Assembly: GCA_016290335.1 (NCBI GenBank)
Contig: JAEETM010000068.1
Location: 1-18,430, forward strand
Direction: 5' to 3'
Source of the DNA: Treponema sp.
GTDB lineage: Bacteria; Spirochaetota; Spirochaetia; Treponematales; Treponemataceae
Length of the DNA stretch: 18,430 nt
The position numbers and the translations under genes were made by a program. Shown in pieces: positions 1-14,584 of this stretch (positions within the stretch are counted from its first letter, which is position 1; the number at the start of each line of letters is the position of its first letter). Below the pieces are notes generated by a model. It was not told the DNA's origin and made no database searches. It was given only the letters and a program-made list of their open reading frames with translations.

Positions 1-137
1 TTTTCCAGCCTGCTTTCTGTTATAAATATAGACAGCGTTATTTGTCTGTCTCCCAGTGACACTTCTTTCGTTCATTTTATTGCTTTGTTCGGGAAAGCTG
101 CCACTGCGCCGTGCGGGAAAACGGGGGGTTCGTTTTA
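1..137. other. Downstream flank of the NERD-helicase gene, no gene seen
   Basis: No credible gene is visible. On the minus strand, just after the helicase stop codon, lies a weak hairpin: AAAACG at 118-123 pairs with CGTTTT at 131-136. It could act as a poor intrinsic terminator. A separate inverted repeat, AGACAG at 30-35 and CTGTCT at 46-51 with a 10-nt spacer, is of unknown role. Confidence 0.3.
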
Positions 138-1937
138 TCACTCTACCGCGCTTTCCATCTTCAGCAACTTCACCACGCTCTTGCGAGTACCTGGCAGTTT
201 TGCTTCTTCCACACCAGAAAGACTTTCTTCCGCCTCTGTTTCGCCCTCTGGAGCATCTTTGCAATTAATTTTCATCTGCTCCTGCAAAGCATCCACAATA
301 CCCCGGTAGTCACCTTTCTCTACATCTTCATAAAACGCAACTTTCAAATACGTGTTGGCACGGCTGCCACCAATGTAAATCATACGCTGCATCACCGCAT
401 CTAACAGTTTGGAAACTTCCACATCCACCAGCAACACTGCTTTGGCTTCCAGCCCTTTGTACTTGCGGGTGGTGGTGACCCAAACTTTTCCTTCTTCCAG
501 TGTATTGGAAACGGGCAGTCCTGCCAGTGACCTTACGCCGAACAACGCGCTGTGTTCCAGCGAATGCACGGAAAGAATCACCATATCTTCCAAGGCCACG
601 CGGTTTTCCTGCATAGTTTTCACAAAACGCTCTGCAATGCCACGAGCCTCAGCTTTATCAGTATAAAAAACAGCTTTCGGCTTTTCCCCATGCACATTGT
701 TCACATAGGGTTCCTGCCGCATATCCACCAGCGAACCAACCGTTGCTGCAATCTCCGACGTGTTCCGGCAGTTACGGTACAACACCAGCCGGCACTCCGC
801 CTTGCTGTCCAAGTATTGCGGCTGTTCCGGTGAATTCCGTTCCAATATGAACTGGTTCCGGTCATAGAACACATAAAAGCTTCCATCGTTCAGCTCTGCC
901 AAAAAAGATAAATGTTCCAGCATGGCGTCGCTGATATCCTGGCCTTCATCCACCACGATGTTGGGATATTGCCAGTCCGTATCGTCAAAGTCCGTAGCAA
1001 AGTATTCTTCAAAAAACTTATTGATATGCTCTATGGGCAGCGAATCATCCTGCAAGATTTCTTCCGCCAGGGAACGCACGTTATGCACAGTAATCAGCGG
1101 ATCCAGTTCCTGGGTGCGCAGATGCTGCAATAAAAATTCATTGAAGCACAACAGCAAAACCTTTTGCCCGGTCTGTACCAGCATCCGGGCTTTTTCTATA
1201 GCCAGCAGACTTTTTCCCGTACCTGCCGGGCCATGAATAGCCGCAATCTTCTGCTCACGCAGAAAATCCAGCACCGCAAACTGTTGGCGTGTCAATTGTA
1301 CATAGCTTGTCTGGTTCTCCCGAGCACTGCTGGAAATGGTTTCCGCTATCTGGAACGACGGCAGCAACACACGCAATAATTCTTTGTACTGCCCACCAGT
1401 CAAAGGCGTTGGTACAAAACGGAGATTCCGTTGCCAATACCCAAAAGCAGCATCTAACGCCTTTTCCGGTTCTGTAAGGCTATCCTGATCCAGAATAATA
1501 TCCCGCACCGCTTCCGGCGGCAGCTTCAAATTTTTATCCACGCAAACAGAAGTAAACCATACCGCTCGTCCAATGAGCGGCATGGTTCTCCTATAATTGT
1601 TACGCAAGAGCAGGCGCACCCGGTACTGACTCTCCGCTGCCTGGCCAAACGGATCCATCACCTTTTCCGTACCTGTATTACGGTTAATCTGAATCCAGTT
1701 GCCATCGCGGAACGCCACGCCACCCGCCTTCACTTCTACAGACAGAATCCCCTTCGCCGGATGGATAATCAGAAAATCCGCTTCCCCCTCACTGCGACGC
1801 TGGGCTTCATCTCCCAGCCAACGGTAAGAGTGGATAACTCTGTACTCATTATTCAGTTTCTGCAACGCTTTGTAAACCAGCTTTTCACCCTCGCTGGAGT
1901 GAAAGCTGGTGGTGATGGATGGGTAGAAATTTGGCAT
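138..1937 (-). CDS. NERD nuclease-domain protein fused to a UvrD/DUF2075-like superfamily 1 helicase
   Basis: The roughly 599-residue protein starts with a NERD domain (about residues 10-120). This is a restriction-endonuclease-like fold expected to cut or bind DNA, and the core residues D54, E68 and K70 are visible in GEADF and SVEVKAG. A superfamily 1 helicase follows: Walker A GPAGTGKS (236-243), Walker B DEGQD (330-334), YRNCRNT (387-393), a motif V-like TTTRKYKGLE (488-497) and a motif VI-like YIGGSRAN (521-528). All motor motifs look intact. The last 45 residues are acidic and variable. The start is uncertain: ATG at 1937 or an in-frame GTG at 1955, neither with a good ribosome binding site. 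The gene is more GC-rich than the operon upstream and is separated from it by 129 nt and a hairpin. It may therefore be a neighbour with its own expression rather than part of that operon. NERD-helicases occur both as housekeeping-like repair proteins and in defence islands. Confidence 0.88.
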   Translation of the reverse strand: MPNFYPSITTSFHSSEGEKLVYKALQKLNNEYRVIHSYRWLGDEAQRRSEGEADFLIIHPAKGILSVEVKAGGVAFRDGNWIQINRNTGTEKVMDPFGQAAESQYRVRLLLRNNYRRTMPLIGRAVWFTSVCVDKNLKLPPEAVRDIILDQDSLTEPEKALDAAFGYWQRNLRFVPTPLTGGQYKELLRVLLPSFQIAETISSSARENQTSYVQLTRQQFAVLDFLREQKIAAIHGPAGTGKSLLAIEKARMLVQTGQKVLLLCFNEFLLQHLRTQELDPLITVHNVRSLAEEILQDDSLPIEHINKFFEEYFATDFDDTDWQYPNIVVDEGQDISDAMLEHLSFLAELNDGSFYVFYDRNQFILERNSPEQPQYLDSKAECRLVLYRNCRNTSEIAATVGSLVDMRQEPYVNNVHGEKPKAVFYTDKAEARGIAERFVKTMQENRVALEDMVILSVHSLEHSALFGVRSLAGLPVSNTLEEGKVWVTTTRKYKGLEAKAVLLVDVEVSKLLDAVMQRMIYIGGSRANTYLKVAFYEDVEKGDYRGIVDALQEQMKINCKDAPEGETEAEESLSGVEEAKLPGTRKSVVKLLKMESAVE

Positions 1938-2016
1938 ATTCGTTTTTGCAACCACTTAATCTATACTACATCGTTACAATGGAGATGTATCTCATTTCTA
2001 AATTCGATTAATTCAA

Positions 2017-2045
2017 CAATCCCGAAGATGCACTCTCCGGGATTG
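2017..2045 (-). terminator. Hairpin after the 202 aa gene, possible terminator
   Basis: CAATCCCG at 2017-2024 pairs perfectly with CGGGATTG at 2038-2045 across a 13-nt loop that can pair a little further (AGA/TCT). On the minus strand only a short, broken T/A-rich tail follows, so termination may be partial. The hairpin lies between the stop of the AT-rich operon and the NERD-helicase gene. Confidence 0.45.
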
Positions 2046-2066
2046 AAAAGAAAGAACCCATTAAAG

Positions 2067-2675
2067 CTATTTGTTTTTTGGAGAATTAGCGATTTCCCTT
2101 AATGCATCATAAACATTACTACTGTTTTCAGGTTGAGGCTCTGGTTGCTTTTTCACAGCTAATCGTTGTATTTCTTTAGGACTATGCTCTGATGAAACAG
2201 ACTCTTTTTTTACACAAGTTTGTTGAGAATTACTCCACGGCTTAGCATGTTTTGGTGGATTAATTTTAGGATATGTATAAAGAAAACCTTCTTTAATCTT
2301 TCCATTATATTCATTTGGCAAGGAACGATTAATTATTTCTTCCAACTGCATTCCATCTAGCTTCCACTTAACCGGTCTGAGTGTTGTAGCATCAACCGCT
2401 TTAACAACTTCATTCCATTGCCAAGGGTTACTTTTGGTAATAGTAAAAAAAGACTGTGAATCCAAACATTGATCGCTAACCAGAATACATTGACAGACTG
2501 TATTCTTAGTATCAATTTGCTCGTTGTCCCGAATTTGTGAAAACAAGTCCTGGGACCAAGGTATCTTTTCTTCTCCACCAATTGATATCTTTGAATACGG
2601 ACCATCATTATAACTGACTTGCCCGCTAAAAACTCCTTTTTGTAAACATCCAATGATTTTTATATGGTTATCCAT
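2067..2675 (-). CDS. Hypothetical protein, 202 aa, last gene of the Hsp70/HerA cluster
   Basis: I do not recognise the family. The first about 135 residues look globular with alternating strands and two tryptophan motifs (IPWSQDLF near 38, NPWQWNEVV near 83). From about residue 135 the chain is proline-, lysine-, serine- and glutamine-rich and probably disordered. A short helical end follows (VYDALREIANS). No membrane segment or signal peptide is seen. The ATG at 2675 has AGGTGG about 9 nt upstream. The start lies 14 nt after the stop of the preceding paralog gene, so the two are almost certainly cotranscribed, and the product probably works with the proteins upstream. AT-rich codon use matches the operon and differs from the NERD-helicase gene that follows. 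A role as adaptor or immunity-type partner is possible but not shown by the sequence. Confidence 0.75.
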   Translation of the reverse strand: MDNHIKIIGCLQKGVFSGQVSYNDGPYSKISIGGEEKIPWSQDLFSQIRDNEQIDTKNTVCQCILVSDQCLDSQSFFTITKSNPWQWNEVVKAVDATTLRPVKWKLDGMQLEEIINRSLPNEYNGKIKEGFLYTYPKINPPKHAKPWSNSQQTCVKKESVSSEHSPKEIQRLAVKKQPEPQPENSSNVYDALREIANSPKNK

Positions 2676-2689
2676 AGTTGTCGTCCACC

Positions 2690-3388
2690 TTAAAGATTGC
2701 TCTTAACAGCATCTTTCAAATCGTCAATTTTTTCATCAGTATCAATTGCTGCATCTGCAAAGTGTTTTTCAACCATATCTTTGACAGAATGGTACACTTT
2801 GCTCCTATCCTCGCTGCCAGGTTGCAAATCGCCCCTTAAATAATCAGCACATTTTCCCATGTCAGAAACACCGTTGTTCTTCATATTTTGCATAAGACCT
2901 GCAATATCTTCAACCTTGTAACCTTGTTTTTCCATAGCTGGAATTGTTTTTAAAAAAGCCGGACTTAACGTAACGCCTTGTTTTTCTTCTATATCTTTTA
3001 CGTAAAGCCCTAACCCTGTTAATTGATATTTTTGCCTCTCTTCTGGGGTTAAATTCTTAAGTTTTTCTGAATCAATCTGGTATTTAGGATTATTACGCAA
3101 TTCATCAAGATACTCACCAATAGAATCAAATTTTTCTGGCTTTACACCCTCTTGACCGGCAAGTTCTGCTTTCATGCCAATCTCTTCTGGTTCTTCTTCT
3201 TCCGGTTTACCTGCAAAAAGAGTTGCCAAAATACTTATAATAGGTCCTAAAACTGACAAAAAAGGGGCTATCACCGGCGCCAATGTGCTGACTGCTCCCA
3301 TAACAGCGCCACCAATACTTGAACAAATGCTTCCAACCGCGCTACAAACGCTACCAATAAACGAACCTATAGCACTAAAAAAACCCAT
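2690..3388 (-). CDS. Glycine-zipper-like hydrophobic N-terminus plus conserved paralog domain (paralog B), 232 aa
   Basis: The N-terminal about 60 residues are almost entirely G, A, S, V, I and L with regularly spaced glycines (GSFIGSVCSAVGS, SSIGGAVMGAV), then a second apolar stretch (VIAPFLSVLGPIISILATLF). This could insert in or oligomerise on membranes. An acidic hinge (KPEEEEPEE) leads to a soluble helical domain that is clearly homologous to the upstream gene product. Shared signatures include IGMKAEL, EGVKP, ERQKYQL, GLGLYV and YLRGDLQPGS, the last followed by VYH. The start is placed at ATG 3388 because GGAGGAA (3395-3401) sits 6 nt upstream. The longer frame from a GTG at 3403 would start inside this ribosome binding site. 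The gene begins 29 nt after paralog A and ends 14 nt before the 202 aa gene. A membrane-active effector or membrane anchor is an inference; no named family is recognised. Confidence 0.8.
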   Translation of the reverse strand: MGFFSAIGSFIGSVCSAVGSICSSIGGAVMGAVSTLAPVIAPFLSVLGPIISILATLFAGKPEEEEPEEIGMKAELAGQEGVKPEKFDSIGEYLDELRNNPKYQIDSEKLKNLTPEERQKYQLTGLGLYVKDIEEKQGVTLSPAFLKTIPAMEKQGYKVEDIAGLMQNMKNNGVSDMGKCADYLRGDLQPGSEDRSKVYHSVKDMVEKHFADAAIDTDEKIDDLKDAVKSNL

Positions 3389-3394
3389 AATAAA

Positions 3395-3401
3395 TTCCTC
3401 C
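3395..3401 (-). promoter_or_regulatory. Ribosome binding site that fixes the start of paralog B
   Basis: GGAGGAA on the minus strand lies 6 nt before ATG 3388. It overlaps the alternative GTG start at 3403, which argues against that longer form. Confidence 0.8.
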
Positions 3402-3417
3402 ACATTTCACTCTCATA

Positions 3418-4059
3418 TTAAGCCTTTAAATCACTTTTCATTGTTTCAAGCTTTTCATCAATTCCTGCATCATCCAATTCCGGGAATTTTTTATGTAACA
3501 TATTATCCGTTGCATGGTACACTATCGTACGTTCCGACGAACCCGGTTGCAAATCACCACGCAAATATCTTTCAAATGCCCCTGCATCGCTTAATTTTTC
3601 TGAAGCAAAACCGGTTATTAAATTTGCGATATCGTTAGCAGCCAACCCTACCGTAACAGCAGTCTTCCAAAAATTAGCCGGTAAGCCGATATTAAATTTT
3701 TGTTCCATGCCAACAATATACAATCCTGCTCCAAGTACCTGATACTTATAACGTTCAACGTCAGATAAACTATCAAGCATTTTTTCGTCAACCTTAACTT
3801 TTTCATTTAAACAATTAAGATAGTCATCCATGTTTTCAAAATCAGCCGGTTTGATACCTTCCTTTGCACCCAGTTCAGCTTTTAATCCAATGAGTTCAGC
3901 ACTTTCGCTTTCAGGTCTGTCGAGGAGGATTTTTCCTACCTCTGAAACAATTGATAAAATGGCTTTTCCCAACTCAATATAAATTTGCAAATTTGCAAAC
4001 GGAGCCGGTAGCTTTGGTAATATACCTGGAAGAATTTCCGTCGAATTAAACATGGCCAT
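3418..4059 (-). CDS. Paralog A of the tandem pair, 213 aa, unknown function
   Basis: The C-terminal about 160 residues match paralog B downstream: LIGLKAEL, EGIKPADF, ERYKYQV, GAGLYIVGMEQK, and YLRGDLQPGS followed by VYH. The N-terminus differs. Instead of a glycine-rich membrane-like segment it has a proline-containing start (ILPGILPKLPAP) and one moderately hydrophobic amphipathic helix (ELGKAILSIVSEVGKILL), then an acidic hinge (RPESES). The two genes look like a duplication in which the shared domain was kept and the N-terminus changed. ATG 4059 has AAGGAGG about 9 nt upstream. The gene starts 35 nt after the HerA-like ATPase stop. No catalytic motif is evident. The conserved arginine, aspartate and histidine cluster around YLRGDLQPGS and VYH is the most constrained part and may be a binding surface for the ATPase or chaperone. 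Confidence 0.8.
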   Translation of the reverse strand: MAMFNSTEILPGILPKLPAPFANLQIYIELGKAILSIVSEVGKILLDRPESESAELIGLKAELGAKEGIKPADFENMDDYLNCLNEKVKVDEKMLDSLSDVERYKYQVLGAGLYIVGMEQKFNIGLPANFWKTAVTVGLAANDIANLITGFASEKLSDAGAFERYLRGDLQPGSSERTIVYHATDNMLHKKFPELDDAGIDEKLETMKSDLKA

Positions 4060-4094
4060 GTTAACTTTCCTCCTTTTCTAACTAATAGTAAAGT

Positions 4095-7000
4095 TTAAAA
4101 CAAATCAGATACCTTAACTTTTTTCAATTCTTCATAGTTAGACTGATACGCGGTAAGCCACTTCTTTAACAACTCTGCATTTTTATCATTTAACGAACCT
4201 GCTGCAAATGTCTTAACTCTTAACCAGTCAACTATATCATCTAATGTATACACTTTTTCATCAATCATTTTCTTTAAAATTGAAGCATAATATTTATTCC
4301 ACTTCTTTTCATTGGTTTCTTTCATGTAAAGATCTATCATCTTTACTGCATAATCATTCCGCATGAAATCCAAAACATCCCCACGCAGCTTACCATCAAG
4401 CTTTGTCAAAGGTATACGGGGCTTTATAAAGATAGGCCGCTTGCAGCACTTTTCGTAATAAGAAAAAGCTATATCTGTTAATTCTTCATCAGCTAAAGGA
4501 GCATTAGACGTGCTTGTTTCCTGTTCAATCTGTACTTGCAATGCCTGACCAAAATTATCCGAGAACATAATGGCGCGGCCAATATTCAAATTAGACAAAA
4601 ATTCTTTCTGATCTTGCTGTAAGGCCATAGTGTTTCCCACGGCTTCTTTATCGTCTTGGGCAAAAATACGGTGTACTATTTTTGTATTCGTATTCTTTAA
4701 AACATCTGGCGCCAGCTTATTGGGAATCTGATCAACAATAATCAAACTTTCTCCATACTTGCGAATCTCTGCCAGCATATCTGCAAAAGTTTCTACTGCC
4801 TGCTTCTTATTCAAACTGTCCCCCGGTACAAAACGACTCAACAAACGATGTGACTCTTCAATGAGAATAATATGAGAGTGTGCTTTTCTTTCCCGCAAAT
4901 AACGCGCACGAACCGCTTCATTAAATGCAGAAAGGACAAAGCCCATAATTAATGCCTTTTCACTCCCGTTCTTAATACCTTCCAATTCTAATACAACCTG
5001 ACGGTCAAGCAAATCATCAAAGTCTACTGAACGTTTCGTGTCAAGCATCAAACCCTTAGAACCCAAAACCAAACTTTGCAACCTTGCACGTATTGAACCA
5101 ATATAATCATTTTTAAGCCGTTCATCAAATTTTTGTTCCGTCACAACAGTTTCAATCTTCTTCAGCATGTCGTTAAAGGTCGGGAAAGCATTTATATCAT
5201 CCGCAAAAGGATTGTCATACTTTTTATTTTTATTTGTTGTTATGTCCCAACCACAATCCTCATAACAACGGTAAAGTATCGTTTCAATCAATTGCGGTAT
5301 AGCTGCTTCCATATCAAAAGCAGCTTCTATACTTGCCTTGATCATATCTACATGAGATGTGATGTTTTCATGAGGCAAAAACTCAAAAGGATTTAAGCGG
5401 AAGGGAGCAACACTATCATTCCCGAGCGTAAACACAAGCAAATCTTTACACTGTGGATTGTGGCGTAGAATACGATACTCTGTCTTCGCCGGTTCAATAA
5501 CCAAAAATGGAACCTGGCTCTGTAACAAAATTTTATGACAGGTTGTGGTTTTGCCGCTTCCGGTTACACCAGCAATAAAAATATGTTTGTCCAAAACGTT
5601 TTTATCTAAATAAACCGGCGTCGTTGGAACCACATTACCATTCTGAACCATCTTCCCAAGGCTGATACGATTCTCTGTTAAAGGTTCATCATAATTCAAG
5701 CCAAACTCAACCTCTTCACGAAGCCTCATCCCGATAATTTCTTTTTGCGGCAAACCGGCCAACATAGATAATTCATTGGTTGTCATCCAATTGCATAACG
5801 GAAAATCTTTTTTCCGCTCAACTACCTGTGACAGCAAAGAACGCGCTTTTTTTTCATCTTCAGTCGCTGTCTGCGCAAAGTGACCTCGTGGTAACTGGTA
5901 ATTAAAAAGCGAATCAGTATTTTCCTTTCCATTTATTGAAAACGTACGCAATGGAACCCGGTTTCCCTGTTTTCCTGAATAGAGTGCCAAAGCTGTATTT
6001 TCAAGTTTGATTAATGCAGTTTTCTTTTTTGCAAGAACGTAGAATGCGGAAAGGAATATACCTTTTCCTTTACCATAATCAAGTCTGGGCAATATAACTT
6101 CATCACAGTATTTAATCCATTCACTTGCGTTTTTATTTAAGTATTCACGGGATAATGTTTTAGAACTGCTTTTATTAACACCTTCCTGATCACCGATACT
6201 ATGGCTATCACCGACAGTCTTACTGCTGCTGGTTGTTGCCGAATTACTCTTACCTGTTGTCTTTGAATCACTCCTGCCGCCGCTTTCATTCGTAGATTTG
6301 GAATCATTTTTGCCAGAAGAAGAAGAACTGCTTCCGCTTGAACTATTAGTACCTTTAGTTTCAGACCTGCCCTTACTGCTATTTGTGCCATGCGTTTCAC
6401 TTTCATTGCTTCCGCCAGTCTGGCTACTGCCTGAAGTAGAACTGCTGCTTTCCCCCTTTGTCATAGTTCTTGATTTAGAAGTTCCTTCAGAAGAACCTTC
6501 CTGTAAACTGAATTTAGCAATAGGATTCAAATCATTATATGCATCCTGAAGCGTATTTTCCAAATCTGTAATTAATTGTGGCTGCAAAGCTTTTGCTATT
6601 AACAGAACACAAAATTCTTCGCCTTGCATAATATCAACTAAACGGTCAACACTTTGAAACTCTTCATTGTCTTTAATTGTTCCCGCCACGCCCTCAATAC
6701 GCGAAACATGGGTCATAGAACTGATTTTTTGCAAAAGTGGTGTTTTATCTTCCGGCGAAACCGCATTAATCTTACAACCGCGAAAATTTCCTCGGATACT
6801 TGCCTGTAAAATATTATCACCAATTTCTTTTACAGAAAGCTTGCTTTCCGTTTTTTCATACAGGTTACGCGCAAGCCCGTAATAAAATTTCACGCCGGCT
6901 TTATCGCCAACAATCAAATATAAGAAATTGACGCCGGGAATACGCACAGCGCTTAACACATTCTCCAATGCTTCTTTACGTGGAGCATCATCTTCAAATG

Positions 7001-7145
7001 TAACCTCATCAATACGGTATAGGACAATATCTTTATTCTCTATAGTGATATTGTCTTTTTCCCGGCTTAAAACAATGTCCGAAGAATTTGCAAAATAATA
7101 GTTTTGTACAAAATTCAAAACGTTTAAAACAGATTTTTCTTCCAT
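4095..7145 (-). CDS. HerA/FtsK-like (DUF87-type) P-loop ATPase with serine-rich linker, 1016 aa
   Basis: The protein is a likely hexameric DNA- or protein-translocating motor of the HerA/VirB4 type. Residues 1-212 form an alpha/beta domain of unknown role. Residues about 217-332 are a low-complexity linker dominated by S, G, T, K and N. Residues about 333-500 are a second domain, followed by the RecA-like ATPase: Walker A GVTGSGKTTT (526-535), a typical EPAKTEYR motif (551-558), and Walker B IILIEES followed by HRLL (759-768). The helical C-terminal about 120 residues carry no motif I recognise. ATG 7145 has GAGGTG about 11 nt upstream and lies 15 nt after the stop of the Hsp70-like gene, so the two are cotranscribed. 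HerA-like ATPases in defence loci usually pair with nucleases (SIR2-HerA, DUF4297-HerA). Here the only nuclease-like candidate nearby is the NERD-helicase. All nucleotide-binding motifs look intact. Confidence 0.88.
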   Translation of the reverse strand: MEEKSVLNVLNFVQNYYFANSSDIVLSREKDNITIENKDIVLYRIDEVTFEDDAPRKEALENVLSAVRIPGVNFLYLIVGDKAGVKFYYGLARNLYEKTESKLSVKEIGDNILQASIRGNFRGCKINAVSPEDKTPLLQKISSMTHVSRIEGVAGTIKDNEEFQSVDRLVDIMQGEEFCVLLIAKALQPQLITDLENTLQDAYNDLNPIAKFSLQEGSSEGTSKSRTMTKGESSSSTSGSSQTGGSNESETHGTNSSKGRSETKGTNSSSGSSSSSSGKNDSKSTNESGGRSDSKTTGKSNSATTSSSKTVGDSHSIGDQEGVNKSSSKTLSREYLNKNASEWIKYCDEVILPRLDYGKGKGIFLSAFYVLAKKKTALIKLENTALALYSGKQGNRVPLRTFSINGKENTDSLFNYQLPRGHFAQTATEDEKKARSLLSQVVERKKDFPLCNWMTTNELSMLAGLPQKEIIGMRLREEVEFGLNYDEPLTENRISLGKMVQNGNVVPTTPVYLDKNVLDKHIFIAGVTGSGKTTTCHKILLQSQVPFLVIEPAKTEYRILRHNPQCKDLLVFTLGNDSVAPFRLNPFEFLPHENITSHVDMIKASIEAAFDMEAAIPQLIETILYRCYEDCGWDITTNKNKKYDNPFADDINAFPTFNDMLKKIETVVTEQKFDERLKNDYIGSIRARLQSLVLGSKGLMLDTKRSVDFDDLLDRQVVLELEGIKNGSEKALIMGFVLSAFNEAVRARYLRERKAHSHIILIEESHRLLSRFVPGDSLNKKQAVETFADMLAEIRKYGESLIIVDQIPNKLAPDVLKNTNTKIVHRIFAQDDKEAVGNTMALQQDQKEFLSNLNIGRAIMFSDNFGQALQVQIEQETSTSNAPLADEELTDIAFSYYEKCCKRPIFIKPRIPLTKLDGKLRGDVLDFMRNDYAVKMIDLYMKETNEKKWNKYYASILKKMIDEKVYTLDDIVDWLRVKTFAAGSLNDKNAELLKKWLTAYQSNYEELKKVKVSDLF

Positions 7146-7160
7146 GTTTTCGTGTCACCT

Positions 7161-10100
7161 CTAATCCAATTCAATTTTAACAGGGCCATATTTAAAGTTG
7201 CCGCTCTTTACCGCATCATCATTAACCGCCACCACATATTCCAGTGTGTCCGGGCCAACGGCACGCAGATAAATGAGCCAATCTTCATTTACTGCTTTAG
7301 CCGGTAACTTTTGCCGTGATTTTTTAGTTTCTGATGCCAGTAGGCCACGTTCTCTTTCTGCCGTTGTGGATGTAGTATAATAAAATTCAAATCTGTCAAC
7401 GCCCGCATCATAGTATTCGTGCCATACATTGTATTCGCAGTCACGACTGATAACAGGCACAAAATAATTGTCATTATCGCTGTAACCAACCCAATAACGG
7501 AACTTAATTTCTTCTTCCGTCTTTGTTTCGCTTATAACTCTGATTTTTGAACCCTTACGGCACTGAACCAAACCTATCGCAACTCCAGTTTTGCCGGTAG
7601 GACTTTCCAGTGAATTTACGTCTATACTTGTCACTTTTAGTTTTTGTATCTGTTTGTTTGCGTCTTCAGTTCCCAACGGCGGATAAATCAAAAGCAAATC
7701 TTCAACCTTAACTTTTTTATCCATCCGATCCTGGATTTCTTTTGCGCATTCATCCATTGCCTGTCTGAACAATTCCTGTAATATAACCGATTTACTGGCG
7801 TTACCGGCAAGGAAAATGTGTATCTTTGTTGTATCTTTTATTTTTTCCGCATAAGATGGCTTTTTATAATTAGAAATTAGTGCGTCAAAGAAACTATCCA
7901 CTCCTTTTTTAATACGCTTTCTCAAAAGTTCATCCAATTTTTTAACAGGTACTTTAAGTTCAAAATTGTTAAGTACTTCACCATTACGATTGAATAAACG
8001 TAGTTTTATGACTCCGGAACTATATTCCTTTTCATATTCTGCGGTTCTTTCCCAAAACGGCCGCAACTTTTCCATAAGCTGGCGCATATTAGTCTGCGCT
8101 TCCTGTGAATCAGCTAACAGAAATTCACTGCCTGGAAAACGGTTACATTCAGGCGGCCTGCAAAACGTTACCTCTGAAGTACGCAATTCATTCTGATTCT
8201 CTTTGAACACTTCATATGCCAGCAGTTCCAATAAGTTTTCTCCGCCAAGAAATTTATCGCCACCGTCTCCAAAATGTTCAATCACATAATTATAACGGCG
8301 TTCCTTAACGCCTTTTGCCTTTCGCCAAATTCCAAAATCAAAATCGGTAGTGCCACCGCCAAAGTCAAAAACGCCATAAACTATATTTTCATTTTCTTTA
8401 GGCTGTAAATTATAGCACTGCAAAGCACAAACTGCATACGCTGCGGGTTCGCCTACGCCCTCTTCTACACTAAACTTTTCCATACTCGTTTTATCACCGA
8501 GTACCGTCTGCGGTAATGAACGAGCCAAGCCTTTGCGGAAACTTGTTAATATCCTTTTACGTGTTTCCAAAGAATAGGTAACCGGGAAAGACAACAAATA
8601 TTCCATGTAAATACGGCCTGTATGCATATTATTTATATATAACCCTATAAAATACGCATACAACTCAATGGGATCAAAGTCCCCATCCTGCAATTCATCG
8701 TATGGAGGTAAACTGATTTCCTTGCCCTGTTTATCTCTTATGCGGATTCGCCGGTTGCTATCGCCGGCCCACTGCTTCAATTCCCCAAAAAATGAAAAAT
8801 AGTATTCGCTTTTGTCGTTATTCTGCCAGTCATTGTACGCCGTATGCGAAGCTGTCACATCAGCCCATTTGGTAAGCGGTCGTCCAACACCCGTTCGATA
8901 CGCCTCAAGAAATTCATCAATATTGATAAACTCCATAACCGTTGGGTTTTCGTAATCTCTGGCTGATGGGGCTTTTTCAAAACGGCCCATACCTACGCGC
9001 ATAGGTTCAATGCGATCACTGTCATCCTGGGCAACAACAACGGTAGATTTTGTGCCAAAATCAATACCAATCACGCCTCCATCCAATATATCCATCCGAG
9101 GATCACGGGCATAACACGATACATCCGGCAATGTAACCAACGCTTCATTCCGGTATTTTGCATCCCAAAGTTCCCAGGAACCCCTGTTGGGGTCTTCTAA
9201 CATCATGGAGTCATATTCTTTAATATCTGCTCGCAAAGAATCTGTTGTCAGAATTCCATTCACAATGGTATCCTGTGATATAAACTCTGTGCCCCCGGTA
9301 CTCTTCTGTATTTCTTTACCTAGAAGTTCAATATCATAATGACTGAAAGCCTCTAACCATTCTTTATCTCTTAAATATTTTCGTAAGGTACCTAACGCAG
9401 CCGGATCAAGAGAAATCTTGTTGCCTAATATTACATAATGATTTTCATACAGCGATTGTAGTATTTTAAATAATGTGCTTAAAATTTTATACTTAGCAGG
9501 GAACTTAGGGACAAATCCTTTTATGAGTAAAAATGATAAATAAGGTTCATCATCAAATAATTCACTTATACGGATATCACAGCTATCATAACCATATGAA
9601 GAACCAAAATAACGTGCATCATCAAATTGATCTTCAACATGACGAAAAACATATTGGTTTGTATAAATTGTATAATAAATGTTACCATATTTATGCTGGA
9701 TAGAATTGTTTATTTGAGGAACATCTTTCTTTCTGGGAAATTTTATAGAAAAGTAATCAGGCCTTTTATCTTTCAATACATCTGGCATTTCTTTATAATA
9801 ATACTGCGAAGCATGTTTTTGCAAATTGGCCGCTGGAATGTTATCAATTAAATATTTCTTTTTATCGGCAGTGACGGTAAGCAAAACAGGATAATTTTCC
9901 AATTCTATATACAGATTTAAATTTTCTTTTAGATATATATCAAATTGTTTGGTAAAATCTGTAATAAATTTATCAACTTCCTCAGCCAAGCCTAAATCAT
10001 GCAGAAGAGCATTGCTCAACGGAAAGGCATTTACTTTTTTAATTGTTTCCTGCGATAGCGGATCAACTTTTTTTAAACGCATGGCCGGTTCGTTATTGTT

Positions 10101-10595
10101 TTTGGGATGCATAGTTTTACCACCTTTATCATTTTTATTAATTACATCGCTATTACTATTTGCGCTTCTTTCTTTTGCCAATTTGGCTAAATAATTGGTT
10201 TCTTCCTTTGTCAAGATAATTTCCTCCACATGTTTCTTTTTCTCCTGCAAAGCGTTTTTTACCACTTTCTTTGTACTTGTACTCTTACTCTTTTGACGTG
10301 GCTCTGTTGTGCCTGTTGTGCTAGCAGTTTTTGCCACTTTCTTTGTACTTGTACCCTTACTCTTTTGACGTAGCTCTGTTTTGCCTGTTGCACTGGCAGC
10401 TTTTGCCACTTTCTTTGTACTTGTACTCTTACTCTTCTGACGCGGCTTTGTTTTGCCTGTTGCACCGGCAGCTTTTGCCACTTTCTTTGTACTTGTACTC
10501 TTACTCTTCTGACGCGGCTCTGTTTTGCCTGTTGCATCGACAGCTTCTGACATCGCGCCAATAATCATCCCCGCAGGAAAAATACCAATTCCCAT
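7161..10595 (-). CDS. Large Hsp70/DnaK-like actin-fold ATPase with basic tandem-repeat N-terminus, 1144 aa
   Basis: The Hsp70-type ATPase core is placed unusually late in the chain. Phosphate-1 motif IGIDFGTKSTVVV is at 509-521, phosphate-2 motif VFDFGGGTTDFDF at 742-754, a GDGGDKFLGG segment near 776 matches the Hsp70 GG-x-x-F region, and the adenosine motif IFLAGNASKS is at 927-936. Residues 21-116 are four 24-residue basic repeats (core RQKSKSTSTKK). Residues about 180-490 form a domain I do not recognise. The C-terminal about 200 residues are partly beta-rich (YWVGYSDND, FEFYYTTST) and may replace the usual substrate-binding domain. Typical DnaK is about 610-640 aa with its ATPase at the N-terminus, so this is a divergent architecture. 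ATG 10595 has AGGAA about 7-9 nt upstream. It sits between the GrpE-like coiled-coil gene and the HerA-like ATPase, which suggests an ATP-driven switch acting with both. Confidence 0.85.
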   Translation of the reverse strand: MGIGIFPAGMIIGAMSEAVDATGKTEPRQKSKSTSTKKVAKAAGATGKTKPRQKSKSTSTKKVAKAASATGKTELRQKSKGTSTKKVAKTASTTGTTEPRQKSKSTSTKKVVKNALQEKKKHVEEIILTKEETNYLAKLAKERSANSNSDVINKNDKGGKTMHPKNNNEPAMRLKKVDPLSQETIKKVNAFPLSNALLHDLGLAEEVDKFITDFTKQFDIYLKENLNLYIELENYPVLLTVTADKKKYLIDNIPAANLQKHASQYYYKEMPDVLKDKRPDYFSIKFPRKKDVPQINNSIQHKYGNIYYTIYTNQYVFRHVEDQFDDARYFGSSYGYDSCDIRISELFDDEPYLSFLLIKGFVPKFPAKYKILSTLFKILQSLYENHYVILGNKISLDPAALGTLRKYLRDKEWLEAFSHYDIELLGKEIQKSTGGTEFISQDTIVNGILTTDSLRADIKEYDSMMLEDPNRGSWELWDAKYRNEALVTLPDVSCYARDPRMDILDGGVIGIDFGTKSTVVVAQDDSDRIEPMRVGMGRFEKAPSARDYENPTVMEFINIDEFLEAYRTGVGRPLTKWADVTASHTAYNDWQNNDKSEYYFSFFGELKQWAGDSNRRIRIRDKQGKEISLPPYDELQDGDFDPIELYAYFIGLYINNMHTGRIYMEYLLSFPVTYSLETRKRILTSFRKGLARSLPQTVLGDKTSMEKFSVEEGVGEPAAYAVCALQCYNLQPKENENIVYGVFDFGGGTTDFDFGIWRKAKGVKERRYNYVIEHFGDGGDKFLGGENLLELLAYEVFKENQNELRTSEVTFCRPPECNRFPGSEFLLADSQEAQTNMRQLMEKLRPFWERTAEYEKEYSSGVIKLRLFNRNGEVLNNFELKVPVKKLDELLRKRIKKGVDSFFDALISNYKKPSYAEKIKDTTKIHIFLAGNASKSVILQELFRQAMDECAKEIQDRMDKKVKVEDLLLIYPPLGTEDANKQIQKLKVTSIDVNSLESPTGKTGVAIGLVQCRKGSKIRVISETKTEEEIKFRYWVGYSDNDNYFVPVISRDCEYNVWHEYYDAGVDRFEFYYTTSTTAERERGLLASETKKSRQKLPAKAVNEDWLIYLRAVGPDTLEYVVAVNDDAVKSGNFKYGPVKIELD
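10248..10535 (-). repeat. Four in-frame 72-bp tandem repeats in the Hsp70-like gene
   Basis: Four consecutive 72-bp units each encode 24 residues with the core PRQKSKSTSTKKV and a variable TG-K-T beginning. The units are near-identical in DNA with a few substitutions, and the last is the most diverged. Because the period is a multiple of three, gain or loss of units would change tail length without a frameshift. The tail is strongly basic. Confidence 0.9.
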
Positions 10596-10676
10596 ATTAA
10601 ATTCCTATATTATCAACTATTTTAACTATATCATACTAGTAGTAACAACCATTTCAACTAAATGTATCGGAAGATA

Positions 10677-11546
10677 TTACGTATATTCCACAATAGTCTT
10701 ACGTTCTGCTTCCTGTTTATTGTTATTCCAAATGCCAGGCAATAATACCCTTTCAATCTTACCTTGGTATTTGCTGCAATTTGCACTTCTAATATGTCGT
10801 TCTTCATCAAACTGCTTTCCTTTCTCGCTTGACATTAATACATATACCGGAGTTTTGTAATTGCAATTTACCAGTTTCAAGAAAAAGTCTATTAATTTTA
10901 CCAACAACTCCATTTCTTTTTCATCAGTTTCGTCAATCCTGTATTTAAGATCATCCCATAACGCTAGTATATTATCCTTATCCGCAACGCTAAGAAGGAA
11001 ATCTAACGGTTTTTTAGAATTTATAATTGACTTAAATCGTTTTTGAGTAGAAGTAGGCAAAGAACAATATAACTTATAATACTGCAATGCTTCTTCAAAT
11101 TCATCAGCAATATTATGATATTCATTATTTTGTTTCAACAAATCCCGATTTTTCTTCTGCAACGAATCCATTTCTATTTTATTTTTTTCGCACTGATTGC
11201 GTAACCCTGCTATTAAAGAAATTTGTTTCTCTTGCTCAGAATCGGCTATTTGGAGTTTTTCTCGCAATTTAAGATTATCTTTTTGTACAAAGGCTAATTC
11301 TTTTTCCAAAGATTCTATAGTATTCTGTGCCGTTAATAAATCTTGTTGAATTCTTTTTAAATCTATTAATTTTTCATTCTCATTCTTTCTATTTCTAACT
11401 TTATCACTTAAAATATCATCTGAATCAAAACTTTCAAATGATTCTTTTATGACCGATAGCATTTTTTTTTGAATCACAGGATTATCTAGAGCTATGGCAA
11501 AACGTTTTAAAAATTTTTCCATTTTTTCTTCCTCGCTATCAAACAT
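10677..11546 (-). CDS. Coiled-coil protein with GrpE-like C-terminal domain, 289 aa
   Basis: Residues about 55-150 are a heptad-like coiled coil rich in K, E, Q and L. A helical stretch follows (about 150-230). The last 50 residues carry a pattern seen in the beta domain of GrpE nucleotide exchange factors: G-x-x-FDEERH near 243-251, then GKIERVLLPG near 262-271, then RKTIVEY near 282-288. GrpE has FDPxxH, G-x-V-x-x-V-x-x-x-GY and R-x-A-x-V-x-V in the same order and after a coiled coil. GrpE partners Hsp70 by opening its nucleotide cleft, and the next gene is an Hsp70-like ATPase, so a dedicated exchange factor is a reasonable inference from order and motif. The assignment is not certain, because the protein is longer than usual GrpE (about 200 aa) and the match is short. 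ATG 11546 has AGGTGAG about 7 nt upstream. The gap to the Hsp70-like gene is 81 nt, with no terminator seen. Confidence 0.72.
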   Translation of the reverse strand: MFDSEEEKMEKFLKRFAIALDNPVIQKKMLSVIKESFESFDSDDILSDKVRNRKNENEKLIDLKRIQQDLLTAQNTIESLEKELAFVQKDNLKLREKLQIADSEQEKQISLIAGLRNQCEKNKIEMDSLQKKNRDLLKQNNEYHNIADEFEEALQYYKLYCSLPTSTQKRFKSIINSKKPLDFLLSVADKDNILALWDDLKYRIDETDEKEMELLVKLIDFFLKLVNCNYKTPVYVLMSSEKGKQFDEERHIRSANCSKYQGKIERVLLPGIWNNNKQEAERKTIVEYT

Positions 11547-11651
11547 TATCGCTCACCTGCTATGAAAAAACCGTACAACAACTCTCGGTAGTTTTTCATC
11601 CTTTCCTTAAAATGAAATTTATAAAACATAATAATTATAAATATTTTTTTT

Positions 11652-11684
11652 ATTATACCATAATACTGTTTTTCTTTCATGAAA
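11652..11684 (-). promoter_or_regulatory. Putative promoter of the coiled-coil/Hsp70/HerA operon with palindrome at the -35 position
   Basis: On the minus strand TATAAT (11657 to 11652) lies about 106 nt before the coiled-coil gene. The -35 position has no consensus but overlaps a perfect 10-bp palindrome, TTTCATGAAA (11675-11684), which could be an operator. Downstream in the leader, 8-bp arms ATTTATAA (11617-11624) and TTATAAAT (11635-11642) form another dyad. Control by the adjacent XRE protein is inferred. Confidence 0.4.
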
Positions 11685-11740
11685 TATTATCGTAATTAGT
11701 TAATCATTCTAAAAATATTCATACATGTAATAGTGATAGT

Positions 11741-11965
11741 TCACTTCAGCAATTCCTGATACTCAACCTGTAATGCCTCGGCAATTGCTAAAAGCGCTTC
11801 CATGCGGAAATTTGTTTTTCCTCTCTCCATGCCGGAAATCTGTGTACGCGAAATACCGGACGCTTCTGCCAGTTCATTTTGTGTCATGTTTAATTTCCGT
11901 CTGCACATCAGGATATTTAATCCAATCCGCTGGCGTTCTTTTTTTAATAGTTCTTTATTGATCAT
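11741..11965 (-). CDS. XRE/Cro-CI-family small DNA-binding regulator, 74 aa
   Basis: This is a single-domain helix-turn-helix repressor-type protein. The core MTQNELAEASGISRTQISGM (about residues 27-46) is a textbook Xre HTH, and ERGKTNFRMEALLAIAEAL completes the five-helix fold. It has no sensor or oligomerisation domain beyond the HTH. The start is placed at ATG 11965 because CGAGGC lies about 9 nt upstream; a longer frame would need a TTG at 11986. The gene lies 194 nt upstream of the coiled-coil/Hsp70-like/HerA operon on the same strand, with a separate promoter between them. Small Xre proteins in this position commonly repress the operon that follows, and autoregulation is likely. A short dyad, AGTGA-TAGT-TCACT (11732-11745), overlaps its stop codon and could be part of that control. 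Confidence 0.88.
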   Translation of the reverse strand: MINKELLKKERQRIGLNILMCRRKLNMTQNELAEASGISRTQISGMERGKTNFRMEALLAIAEALQVEYQELLK

Positions 11966-12020
11966 CACAAATTGCCTCGGTATCAAGTAAATGAGAAATC
12001 ATGGTTATGAAAATATATTC

Positions 12021-12092
12021 TTCTTATTATTATCTCATAAAAATAATTACTGTAGTGTACAATATCCGCAACATTTGTACATCCTATACGAC
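12021..12092 (-). promoter_or_regulatory. Promoter-like segment upstream of the XRE gene (copy 1 of a pair)
   Basis: On the minus strand TTGTAC and TATGAG are 17 bp apart, about 60-90 nt before the XRE start. The segment aligns without gaps to 12833-12904 at roughly two-thirds identity, including both boxes and their spacing. A distal block reading GCAACATTTGT on the plus strand is shared with one difference. A weak hairpin, GGCAA/TTGCC near 12117-12131, lies further upstream and may end the membrane-protein gene. Confidence 0.4.
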
Positions 12093-12159
12093 ATCTGCAT
12101 AAAAACCTTGCAAACGGCAAAGAAATTGCCATCATCACTTTCAATATCGAATGCGTTGA

Positions 12160-12573
12160 CTAAAATTCCCTTACTTTCTTATATAGCGATTTGTAAAAGA
12201 TTTCCTTTTCCCTGTCGTTAAAGAACATGAATTTCGGTGCGTTGTGCAAAATCCTTTGCACCTTTTCTTCAGCGCTTAGCTCGGTATTTTGATAATAATA
12301 CTGATGGACTATTTCATTGAGTATGTTCAGCCCGTAAATTACCACACCGCAGGTTAACCATACCGACCACCGGTCATCCTGAAATACATAATGGGCTGCG
12401 CCTAAACATGTGACTAACAAAAAACTTGAATCAATCATAAGGTCAAAGAGTATCGTTTTTGCAAATACGGTAATGTTGTCAAGATTTCTGATGTTTTCTT
12501 TATCCAAACGATATAACACGATTGACAGTTTTAATCCTTCAAAAGACATCTTATTCGTTCGAAATAGTTTCAT
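12160..12573 (-). CDS. Small membrane protein with two predicted transmembrane helices, 137 aa
   Basis: I do not recognise the family. Two hydrophobic segments are visible: about residues 42-66 (ILFDLMIDSSFLLVTCLGAA) and about 72-92 (WLTCGVVIYGLNILNEIV). They are flanked by a charged N-terminus and a cytoplasmic-looking basic C-terminus (NDREKEIFYKSLYKKVREF). The start is fixed at ATG 12573 by GGAGGG 5-6 nt upstream. A longer frame reaches a GTG at 12774, but it would translate through the conserved promoter at 12683-12722. The gene is therefore read as having a roughly 100-nt leader from that promoter. The promoter shares its upstream motif with two others in the window, one of them divergent from a WYL regulator. 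That makes this gene a probable member of the same regulon. Confidence 0.72.
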   Translation of the reverse strand: MKLFRTNKMSFEGLKLSIVLYRLDKENIRNLDNITVFAKTILFDLMIDSSFLLVTCLGAAHYVFQDDRWSVWLTCGVVIYGLNILNEIVHQYYYQNTELSAEEKVQRILHNAPKFMFFNDREKEIFYKSLYKKVREF

Positions 12574-12673
12574 TGGCCCTCCTGTTGTCACATACTCATT
12601 TTCTTTTTCTTCATGCCGTCTTCGTCCTTGGCAATGTGGACTATAACGTTCCCCTTCCGATTCCGCTATTGTT

Positions 12674-12722
12674 CTATTCTCAATTATAGTTTCTTTGTGC
12701 GACAGGATGCGTCGGTGTGAAA
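12674..12722. repeat. 49-bp repeat, copy 1
   Basis: The 49 bases are identical to 15867-15915, in the same orientation. The repeat contains the motif promoter described at 12683-12722. A diverged third copy of the promoter part lies at 17404-17443. Confidence 0.95.
12683..12722 (-). promoter_or_regulatory. Motif promoter P1 (for the 137 aa membrane protein)
   Basis: Read on the minus strand: TTTCACA, one variable base, CGACGCATCCTGTC, 12 bp, then a perfect TATAAT. No -35 consensus sits 17 bp upstream; the shared motif occupies that place, which suggests an activator-dependent promoter. The motif and spacing recur at P2 (15876-15915) and P3 (17404-17443). Confidence 0.65.
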
Positions 12723-12832
12723 TGGAACAAATGAACAAGACAACATAAAATATTGCAAAATAAAAAGGAAGCACTCTCGTAATTGATAGTTCTCCCTTTC
12801 AATTGTAGCTAATATGTGACTGTACATCGTCT

Positions 12833-12904
12833 TTCTTTTTATTACCTCATAATATCTATGTTCGCGTTGCACAACATACGCTACATTTGTTATTTGTATA
12901 GCAC
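12833..12904 (-). promoter_or_regulatory. Promoter-like segment upstream of P1 (copy 2 of a pair)
   Basis: On the minus strand TTGTGC and TATGAG are 17 bp apart. The segment aligns with 12021-12092 at roughly two-thirds identity. A transcript from here would read through P1 into the 137 aa membrane-protein gene. Confidence 0.35.
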
Positions 12905-12908
12905 ACTA

Positions 12909-13424
12909 CTACTTTTTCAGCCACTTTGCAGCTTCTTCTTTATTCACTGGTACACCATCTCCGCGATAATATGCCGTGCCCAAATTATGCCGTGCCTTAG
13001 CATGACCCTGTTCTGCCGCTTTTCGACACCAGTACACTGCTGCGGTCAAATCTTTCTCTACACCTCGTCCCAAGTGATATGAGTTTCCGACCCTGTATTG
13101 TGATTCGGCATCACCCAGTTCAGCGGCCTTATAATACCACTGGAACGCTTCTTTTGCGTCTGGCTCAACCCCTTTGCCAAATTGATACATCATGCCTATC
13201 ATGTACAATGCATCAACGATTCCCTGTTCCCCAGCCGCTTTGAACCAGTACAACGCCTTGCTCCAGTCTTTGGGTATGCCTACACCATTGTAGTAAGAAA
13301 TGCCCAGATTATATTGTGCCATTGCATGACCCTGCTCGGCCTTAATTAACCACCGCTGAACCGTTTCTTCTGTCGGCAAGCCAGTTTTCACAGGTTCCTT
13401 TTTTCTATTCTCAGTACACAACAT
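12909..13424 (-). CDS. Sel1-repeat (SLR/TPR-like) protein, 171 aa
   Basis: About four Sel1-like repeats of 36 residues fill the protein from about residue 33: 33-68, 69-104, 105-140 and 141-171. Each shows the A-x-x-Q/L-Y-x-L/I-G-x-x-Y-x-x-G-x-G-V pattern followed by K-A/E-A-x-x-W-x-x-K-A-A-E-x-G. Such solenoids bind other proteins and act as scaffolds or adaptors in stress and signalling pathways. No signal peptide is visible, so the product is probably cytoplasmic. ATG 13424 overlaps the last 14 nt of the 55 aa gene upstream, which points to translational coupling. GGAG lies 5 nt before the ATG, inside the upstream gene. It is the third gene of a likely operon with the 99 aa and 55 aa genes. 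Confidence 0.9.
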   Translation of the reverse strand: MLCTENRKKEPVKTGLPTEETVQRWLIKAEQGHAMAQYNLGISYYNGVGIPKDWSKALYWFKAAGEQGIVDALYMIGMMYQFGKGVEPDAKEAFQWYYKAAELGDAESQYRVGNSYHLGRGVEKDLTAAVYWCRKAAEQGHAKARHNLGTAYYRGDGVPVNKEEAAKWLKK

Positions 13425-13578
13425 ATTTCTCCATCCATTCTTTCATTTCATAATACTTTTTCACTTCTTCGTAGCAACCATGCTTCTTCGCCCATTCCAA
13501 AGCTTTCTTTTTTCTTAGCTCTTTCTCTTTCCTATACAATGGATCCCATTTTTCCCGCGGCATAATAATGTTTGACAT
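13411..13578 (-). CDS. Small charged protein, 55 aa, coupled to the Sel1 gene
   Basis: This short frame begins at ATG 13578 with AAGGAG about 10 nt upstream and stops at TGA 13411, overlapping the Sel1-repeat start by 14 nt. The product is highly charged and helical (RKEKELRKKKALEWAKKHG, then EEVKKYYEMKEWMEKY). No family is recognised. It starts 22 nt after the stop of the 99 aa gene. The ribosome binding site, tight spacing and overlap support a real gene. Confidence 0.7.
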   Translation of the reverse strand: MSNIIMPREKWDPLYRKEKELRKKKALEWAKKHGCYEEVKKYYEMKEWMEKYVVY

Positions 13579-13600
13579 AGTGATTTTCTCCTTCCTTTCA

Positions 13601-13900
13601 TCATTCAGCGCAGTATCTGTCTAACTGAGCCAACAGCACTTTCGGTTTTATCACCGCACGGTAAGCCACTTCTTTATGTCCGTTTGTATCCTGTTCCCAT
13701 TTTACAGACAAGGTAATGCCTTTCAGGCCTTCGTCTTCCACGCAGTCGCGGTAGTTTTCAAAACCGTTGTAAATGTTCATCCGGATTTCTTCTTCATCCT
13801 TTAGCCTGTCTGCCAGGTAGAACAGGTTCCGCAGCAGGTTCTCATGGGTATTGGGGAAGTGAATCTGGTTTGCGTGCATTTTCTCAAGATAACTGTTCAT
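13601..13900 (-). CDS. Hypothetical protein, 99 aa, first gene of the Sel1 operon
   Basis: I do not recognise this protein. It is mixed alpha/beta, with an acidic central helix (YLADRLKDEEEIRMNIYNGF) and a likely beta-hairpin (GITLSVKWEQD, EVAYRAVIKP). There is no membrane segment. The start is placed at ATG 13900 because GGAGGAGG lies about 7 nt upstream. The frame remains open to 13978, but that extension crosses a conserved non-coding-like element (13959-13984) and has no ribosome binding site. It is followed at 22 nt by the 55 aa gene and then the Sel1-repeat gene, so the three probably form one transcript. A possible extended -10 (TGGTATCAT) is visible about 45 nt upstream of the start. 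Function is unknown. Confidence 0.75.
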   Translation of the reverse strand: MNSYLEKMHANQIHFPNTHENLLRNLFYLADRLKDEEEIRMNIYNGFENYRDCVEDEGLKGITLSVKWEQDTNGHKEVAYRAVIKPKVLLAQLDRYCAE

Positions 13901-13958
13901 TGGGCATCCTCCTCCTTCTCTTTTGCTAACAATATGATACCATGTAACAGTTTTTTCG

Positions 13959-13984
13959 GGTTTCCCGGCAGGCAACATTTTGCA
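13959..13984. repeat. Post-terminator repeat element, copy A
   Basis: The 26 bp match 15745-15771 with two substitutions and one T indel. On the plus strand it runs from GGTTTCCC through GGCAACATTTT to GCA. It contains a dyad of the form TTSCC-N4-GGSAA and lies directly after a minus-strand terminator and before the promoter region of the next minus-strand operon. Confidence 0.75.
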
Positions 13985-14018: not shown

Positions 14019-14065
14019 TCCTCCTCACGATTTAAAATAAGCCTGGCTAATTGATTTCAATTTTT

Positions 14066-14555: not shown

Positions 14556-14584
14556 GATTTCATAAACATACAGGAGCTGATTTC

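Follow-up and report, generated by a model that had tools for sequence, protein, structure and literature searches.

What would a bacterium do with six consecutive genes that set an Hsp70-like ATPase beside a HerA-type motor? The genes in question lie on the minus strand of 18,430 nucleotides of Treponema sp. DNA (GenBank assembly GCA_016290335.1, contig JAEETM010000068.1, positions 1 to 18,430), and this whole stretch is referred to as the window throughout. A preliminary description, made from the letters alone, had read them as an operon for a chaperone-gated complex. Genome comparison shows that the predicted Hsp70-type ATPase (family label HSP70), a GrpE-like coiled-coil factor (CC), the motor (HERA) and the family of the two paralogs P237 and P213 (PARA) are co-inherited, usually with a small protein (SMALL), and that the ATPase sites are conserved; the coupling of Hsp70/GrpE with HERA is well supported. 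We tentatively propose, at somewhat less than an even chance, that these genes encode a horizontally moving conflict system, probably anti-phage, with two coupled ATP machines, in which Hsp70/GrpE gates a HerA ring that deploys P237.

Organization of the operon

The operon consists of six open reading frames (ORFs) in the order CC, HSP70, HERA, P213, P237 and P202, downstream of an Xre ORF, and all of them were found where the preliminary description had placed them, with gaps of 14 to 81 nt. The spacing is 194 nt from Xre to CC, 81 nt from CC to HSP70, 15 nt from HSP70 to HERA, 35 nt from HERA to P213, 14 nt from P213 to P237 and again from P237 to P202, and 111 nt from P202 to a NERD-helicase gene. 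The family libraries (Pfam, NCBIfam, PADLOC) put names to HERA, Xre and the NERD helicase only.

10677..11546, minus strand: CC, 289 aa, coiled coil with a C-terminal GrpE-type beta-domain, predicted nucleotide exchange factor (hhalign)
7161..10595, minus strand: HSP70, Hsp70-type ATPase, 1144 aa (hhalign, AlphaFold2 model, Foldseek, catalytic residues)
4095..7145, minus strand: HERA, motor of the FtsK/HerA superfamily, 1016 aa (Pfam DUF87, PADLOC, HerA chains of the PDB)
3418..4059, minus strand: P213, PARA paralog without the Gly/Ala/Ser-rich N-terminal helix (35% identity to P237, composition)
2690..3388, minus strand: P237, PARA protein with a Gly/Ala/Ser-rich uncharged N-terminal helix and an all-helical C-terminal domain (alignment A2, AlphaFold2 model, composition)
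2067..2675, minus strand: P202, 202 aa, in the position that SMALL occupies at other loci (position; homology to SMALL not established)

For P237, comparison with homologs makes the ATG at 3388 a more likely start than the GTG at 3403, where the ORF opens. The single promoter previously proposed for the operon was not borne out: the best match (11680-11652, 10/12) is one of 7, shuffled sequences give 6.6 ± 2.1, and the number of predicted promoters is not above chance.

Conservation of the gene set

Genome contigs were scanned with the HSP70 alignment, and the best 80 of 159 relatives were retained; together with the window they make up the 81 loci of our tallies, from which the viral loci L081-L087 were excluded and in which several contigs are short. 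With profiles for the five families, HERA was found beside HSP70 at 29 of the 81 loci, in four phyla. All five families are present at 21 loci, the window itself having four, whereas HSP70 stands alone at 9 and is accompanied by SMALL at 1. The gene order in Bacillota is mostly CC-HSP70-HERA-PARA-SMALL and that in Vibrionaceae HSP70-PARA-HERA-PARA-SMALL-CC, and the small proteins of the two groups belong to one family (hhalign Prob 97.9).

A search with PARA only, covering 398 genomes each of Pseudomonadota and Bacillota, found a match in four genomes of either phylum. The PARA of G006, of G355 (to which L027 belongs) and of G002, two Pseudomonadota and one Bacillota, was already part of the query alignment, so that five of the eight matched genomes are independent. 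HERA adjoins PARA in all five. HSP70 is visible in two of them (L152, L153); the other three contigs are short, L150 and L151 (5.3 and 3.3 kb) ending at the HERA-PARA pair and L154 (9.8 kb) ending shortly past HERA, with a GTPase-like gene near HERA-PARA. The neighbourhood check suggested with the preliminary description came out in its favour: the genes occur together in distant phyla and so make up a real system and no chance array.

Two further arrangements were seen. At L154:4334-9440, HERA-PARA is followed by a 152-aa protein and by a 542-aa protein that is GTPase-like and begins like a zinc ribbon, HSP70 not being on this short contig. Elsewhere, a CC-HSP70 pair without HERA sits in fixed chromosomal surroundings, as if domesticated, in Lachnospiraceae-like genomes and in Peribacillus (L034, L035, L043, L063 and others; L014-L025).

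An Hsp70-type ATPase and its GrpE-like partner

None of the Pfam, NCBIfam and PADLOC families matched the window's HSP70 at E ≤ 1, and the gathering score of PF00012 was not reached. In profile-profile comparison (hhalign) with 81 relatives it aligned to DnaK with Prob 98.6 and E 1.2e-15, the nucleotide-binding domain (NBD) only being covered; the 15-row alignment A1 gave Prob 94.3. The AlphaFold2 model of residues 185-1144 (pLDDT 90.3) had DnaK as its best Foldseek matches (E 4.6e-19). Moreover, the equivalents of D8, K70, E171, D194 and T199 (DnaK numbering) are kept in 65, 64, 65, 65 and 65 of 65 rows. The Hsp70-like ATPase of the preliminary description is upheld by profile, fold and residues, and HSP70 has an Hsp70-type NBD whose catalytic residues are intact.

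The domain order comprises a repetitive N-terminus (residues 1-184, outside the model), N-terminal domain(s) that take up about 320 residues of the model, the ATPase and a C-terminal beta-domain. As to a substrate-binding beta-domain, some VIA rows reach the C-terminus (6eof, 453 residues, model 323-960, root-mean-square deviation 7.0), whereas hhalign stops at the NBD. The C-terminal helical lid is lacking from the model, which ends in strands (last element E952-958). An in-frame 72-bp repeat encodes a basic Lys/Ser/Thr-rich linker near the N-terminus, and this is absent from the other 14 rows of A1. As a separate observation, two HSP70-family genes per operon occur at L027, L040, L058, L065, L080, L136 and L153, a feature that recurs in unrelated groups.

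The coiled coil had been called GrpE-like, and this stands for its C-terminal beta-domain, the very end of the chain: compared with ten canonical GrpE, among which were two partial ORFs, CC gave an hhalign Prob of 91.9 (E 7e-7) over this domain, against Prob 1.3 in the reversed control. The Pfam model PF01025 did not match the window's CC; it matched 5 of the 27 rows of alignment A3 at E ≤ 0.1 (best 0.0048), and 2 of 27 at E ≤ 1 when the C-terminal part alone was used (best 0.038). The long coil itself is not diagnostic for GrpE. These comparisons support CC as a GrpE-like predicted nucleotide exchange factor of a dedicated Hsp70; canonical Hsp70 and GrpE are kept elsewhere in all 10 genomes searched.

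The HerA motor

The motor assignment was confirmed, HERA scoring 32.3 bits with Pfam DUF87 (cut-off 23.2) and matching the PADLOC mad8 and HerA models as well as HerA chains of the PDB; an NCBIfam serine-rich protein model matched weakly (110 of 650 bits). The protein is built of a conserved N-terminal domain, a Ser-rich linker (about 215-330) and the DUF87 ATPase, with the Walker A motif at 526-535 and the Walker B Glu at 763/764. K532, T533, E763, E764 and Q806 are kept in 21 of 21 rows.

SIR2-HerA and DUF4297-HerA are HerA-containing defence systems. The operon shares with these and with MADS (mad8) the HerA/FtsK ATPase domain, but it has chaperone partners in place of a SIR2, nuclease or methylase partner, and HERA adds the N-terminal domain and the Ser-rich linker. 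Family scans of the 18 window proteins revealed no NurA or SIR2 partner, no search having been aimed at either.

The PARA paralogs

P237 and P213, described before as paralogous partners, are indeed 35% identical. The family is helical, without a clear PDB match, and Pfam and PADLOC scans gave no nuclease match for PARA (relatives of SMALL were outside those scans). The AlphaFold2 model of P237 has a pLDDT of 86.5, residues 1-30 being poor. The first 55 residues of P237 contain 0 charged and 25 Gly/Ala/Ser residues; those of P213 contain 11 and 13. Over 30 PARA proteins, this segment has on average 4.5 charged and 21.5 Gly/Ala/Ser residues, compared with 19.0 and 10.7 per 55 in the rest of the chain. 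Small residues spaced 4 apart number 10.6 per protein, whereas shuffling gives 8.1 ± 0.29 and none of 500 shuffles reaches the observed value, and spacings of 3 and 7 are likewise above shuffles.

In a quick tree, whose long branches include that of P213, P237 and P213 group within the window's lineage and the gammaproteobacterial pair is separate. By this tree, the PARA duplication in the window's lineage is independent of the one in Gammaproteobacteria, and one copy each time is poor in Gly/Ala/Ser: the first copies at L037, L054 and L065 have 15, 14 and 10 such residues versus 27, 24 and 25 in their partner copies. Because one paralog of each pair is poor in these residues, composition suggests that the pair could act as effector and cap.

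A possible HERA-PARA cassette, probably shared with CoCoNuT systems

A Photobacterium damselae plasmid has HERA (E 0) and a PARA of 213 aa (E 1.9e-43) next to genes for a DUF2357 protein, an AAA-domain protein, a Ser/Thr kinase, a PP2C phosphatase and a VWA protein, with Csm6 genes on the other side. In the CoCoNuT report (eLife 2024, PMC11090510), the third extension of type III-A CoCoNuT joins a HerA, modelled as an EccE3-like and a VirB4-like part, to a small helical protein without a known function, and secretion is discussed. The Photobacterium HERA and PARA probably belong to the families of this HerA accessory, and the likeness of the accessory to our operon would lie in these two families. 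That report also assigns an Hsp70 unit to type III-A and describes its ATP motifs as partly degenerate, whereas those of the window's HSP70 are intact. Pfam scans of the 18 window proteins (18 kb) contain neither a McrB-like GTPase nor a DUF2357 McrC homolog; Hsp70, the GrpE-like factor and, usually, the small protein stand instead. The Photobacterium DUF2357 protein showed no similarity to DnaK (single-sequence hhalign, Prob 0.2), contrary to what the Hsp70 unit of type III-A would lead one to expect, so the subtype of this operon is uncertain; nothing in it matched the window's HSP70 family.

In a quick HERA tree with an outgroup of our choosing, the Photobacterium copy splits off directly after the Acinetobacter-L154 pair, ahead of the remaining copies associated with Hsp70 (SH-aLRT 99). 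The HERA-PARA half looks like a cassette. The uncharacterized CoCoNuT HerA accessory would thereby gain a second, independent context for working out its job. The motor may be exchangeable: the Helicobacter plasmid L138 (NZ_AP024820.1, 10363-20226) carries HSP70, a CC-like gene and a weak SMALL match beside an FtsK-type motor, an HNH endonuclease and SMI1/KNR4. Two contigs from a viral collection (L181:7492-13347, L182:7807-13362) have a Gly/Ala-rich hydrophobic stretch inside the Ser-rich linker of a HERA-like protein, and the start of its gene is overlapped by that of a different Hsp70/actin-like ATPase (hhalign Prob 92.3 with DnaK and 38.8 with the window's HSP70 family; in Pfam one lies below the cut-off and the other has no match). 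The gene after the HERA-like gene on these contigs encodes a protein with an HEGRH motif.

A secretion-like or delivery machine has to be considered here, in which HERA would be an EccE3/VirB4-like export motor, PARA its substrate or adaptor, and Hsp70/GrpE would prevent the substrate from folding or load it. The modelling and discussion of the CoCoNuT-associated HerA in PMC11090510 point this way, as do the Helicobacter plasmid and an Exiguobacterium plasmid on which genes for an HNH endonuclease and SMI1/KNR4 come after a HERA-like gene. No envelope channel was recognized, however, P237 is the sole core protein of the window to exceed 1.6 in a 19-residue hydropathy window, and a toxin-immunity family is absent among the matches listed for the flank proteins (25 of 128 Pfam families); we regard export as improbable.

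Dedicated HSP70 and GrpE also occur in the predicted GTPase-centred conflict systems of GAP1-N2 type, as far as the relevant passages of Kaur et al. (2020, PMC7159879) go; the likeness is in this pair, whereas a TRAFAC-type GTPase is not among the 18 window proteins scanned and the window's motor is a HerA. The statement that no named system has this set holds for the full combination: no description of an Hsp70, GrpE and HerA system was found in the open full-text literature, where the papers on CoCoNuT and on GAP1-N2 systems were the only ones judged relevant, and one may exist elsewhere, subscription papers and preprints lying outside this search. It does not hold for the HerA and small helical protein half, which fits the CoCoNuT accessory as presented in the cited sections of PMC11090510.

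Mobility and genomic context

The distribution is patchy, HSP70 being found in 7 of 197 Vibrionaceae genomes (the family of G007; at least G006 and G007, and probably G096 and G122, belong to loci that the set contained before). The outer neighbours in this family are partly different: at five loci a common WYL gene lies upstream of HSP70, and L054, L057 and L156 resemble each other, by gene length, for two more flank genes. On an Acinetobacter piscicola plasmid, a segment bounded on both sides by IS3 transposases holds a WYL regulator, HERA, PARA, CC, two HSP70 genes, HEPN, a dynamin-like protein and an integrase, without a SMALL match. A search of 50,697 phage records gave no match.

Flank proteins were listed at 117, of which 106 were scanned and joined by three window proteins to give 109, a phylogenetically uneven sample; the 11 left out come from plasmid L137 (four), L154 (two) and L009, L024, L073, L136 and L152 (one each). 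The control was a seeded draw of 109 of 138 ORFs from 20 stretches of ten HSP70-bearing genomes (G001-G010, G008 having the CC-HSP70 form only); it is not strictly random, because the stretches were chosen mostly at or near weak matches of canonical Hsp70/GrpE searches. WYL-domain genes account for 9 of the 109 nearest flank proteins, while WYL is not among the matches listed for the control (25 of 32 families, 109 proteins), that is, at most 1 protein; Fisher's test gives p = 0.003 if the control is 0, and a weaker result if it is 1. According to phmmer, five of the nine are orthologous Vibrionaceae genes; L136, L073, L029 and L044 contribute one apiece, with weak matches for L029 and L044. 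Regulation of defence loci is a frequent role of WYL proteins. PADLOC families matched numbered 82 in the flank proteins versus 32 in the controls, which are not protein counts because one protein can match many models; single matches include viperin, PD-T4-6, CARF/Csx1 and mad6 models. Patchy spread, the plasmid copy and the WYL and PADLOC neighbours are no more than suggestive of a defence context.

These flanks also bear on the possibility that the HerA complex acts on DNA, its ring translocating invader DNA that a nuclease, perhaps the NERD helicase, would cut, with Hsp70/GrpE gating assembly. HERA matches HerA and mad8 models and HerA structures, a NERD helicase lies downstream of the operon both in the window and at L010 (L010:9471-11204, E 1.4e-52), and NERD-helicase models match 3 of 109 flank proteins, the window's own counted. 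However, no nuclease family recurs at most loci among the matches listed (25 of 128 Pfam families; NERD in 2 of 109), a single one of the 2091 ORFs at the loci retrieved reaches E ≤ 1e-10 with the window's NERD helicase, and PARA is without a nuclease match. We consider such action on DNA unlikely.

A proposed mechanism and the evidence against it

For the conflict system proposed above, the Hsp70/GrpE pair would bind PARA and/or the motor and keep the complex silent. Infection or damage would pull the chaperone off its client or alter its nucleotide cycle, and the HerA ring, once freed, would spend ATP on remodelling or deploying P237. The Gly/Ala/Ser-rich helix at the N-terminus of P237 would pack into or against a membrane, so that the cell would be stopped before the invader spreads. 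P213, without such a helix, would regulate or cap the complex as a subunit. We infer the trigger, the binding partners, the membrane insertion, the cell arrest and the Hsp70 control of the motor; protection against phages is predicted from a context that is suggestive only. Export, action on DNA and a cellular role under stress compete with this reading. If true, this would be a conflict system gating a HerA motor by a full Hsp70/GrpE cycle and not by an AAA+ or GTPase switch. Conservation of the ATPase residues, a cassette that can be separated and paralogs that come in pairs open the idea to direct tests in laboratory strains.

A more far-reaching version, which we think rather improbable, would have a dedicated lidless Hsp70 and its GrpE-like factor hold the HerA ring and a zipper-helix partner inactive until infection titrates the chaperone away or shifts its nucleotide state, whereupon the ring would drive the zipper protein into the membrane. 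The motor-zipper cassette would have been exchanged between sensors of the Hsp70/GrpE kind and those of McrBC type (CoCoNuT), and a duplication followed by zipper decay would have yielded a built-in inhibitor or cap.

Several results weigh against the conflict system. CC and HSP70 occur without HERA at 42 of the 81 loci (some on short contigs); a cellular role for CC-HSP70 fits, because the pair sits without HERA and partly in fixed chromosomal surroundings, and to this extent the defence-locus context of the preliminary description is weakened. Family scans turned up no J-domain partner, although no aimed search was made. No fold matches PARA significantly, so that composition is the sole basis for its proposed role. 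The Kyte-Doolittle maximum of P237 is 2.22, but many relatives stay below 1.8, which makes membrane insertion uncertain, and the N-terminal segment could instead be a packing helix. The Gly/Ala/Ser-poor gammaproteobacterial first copies are still hydrophobic at their start, so that their parallel with P213 is only partial. P202 showed no tie to SMALL (hhalign Prob 0.3; SMALL profile 2.6 bits), five of the nine WYL genes are orthologs within Vibrionaceae, and some Vibrionaceae loci have outer neighbours in common. Finally, the Xre regulator, present in the window as described, is not a conserved part of the system, a similar ORF being found at 4 of 88 loci, the window counted.

The first of these points would suit a stress or proteostasis module outside any conflict, in which a lidless Hsp70, its own exchange factor and an ATPase ring act on a cellular client; the surroundings conserved in Peribacillus and Lachnospiraceae-like genomes agree with this. 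The Hsp70 ATPase domain and the GrpE beta-domain are shared with the DnaK-DnaJ-GrpE chaperone, but the window's HSP70 lacks the helical lid, has a long N-terminal extension, is tied genetically to HerA and has no J-protein in sight. The patchy occurrence of HSP70 in Vibrionaceae and of PARA in Pseudomonadota and Bacillota (even with two and one of the respective genomes already in the query alignment), the plasmid copies, the differing regulators and the defence-type neighbours speak against such a module, which we consider quite improbable.

Other features of the window

Three further features accompany the operon, and the NERD gene may be an extra member of it.

11741..11986, minus strand: Xre-type regulator, 81 aa (Pfam HTH_3, E 1.8e-16)
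10257..10536, no strand: in-frame tandem repeat of 72 bp x 3.9 within the 5' part of HSP70 (Tandem Repeats Finder score 462, 92% matches)
138..1955, minus strand: NERD nuclease-helicase, possible extra member (Pfam NERD; PADLOC RTasNERD-Hel, E 9.8e-61)

Further upstream, at 14066-14425 on the minus strand, lies a gene for a 119-aa Gly/Ala-rich, zipper-like protein with an acidic tail, whose neighbours are an LRAT gene (16230-16787) and a Sel1-repeat gene (12909-13424).

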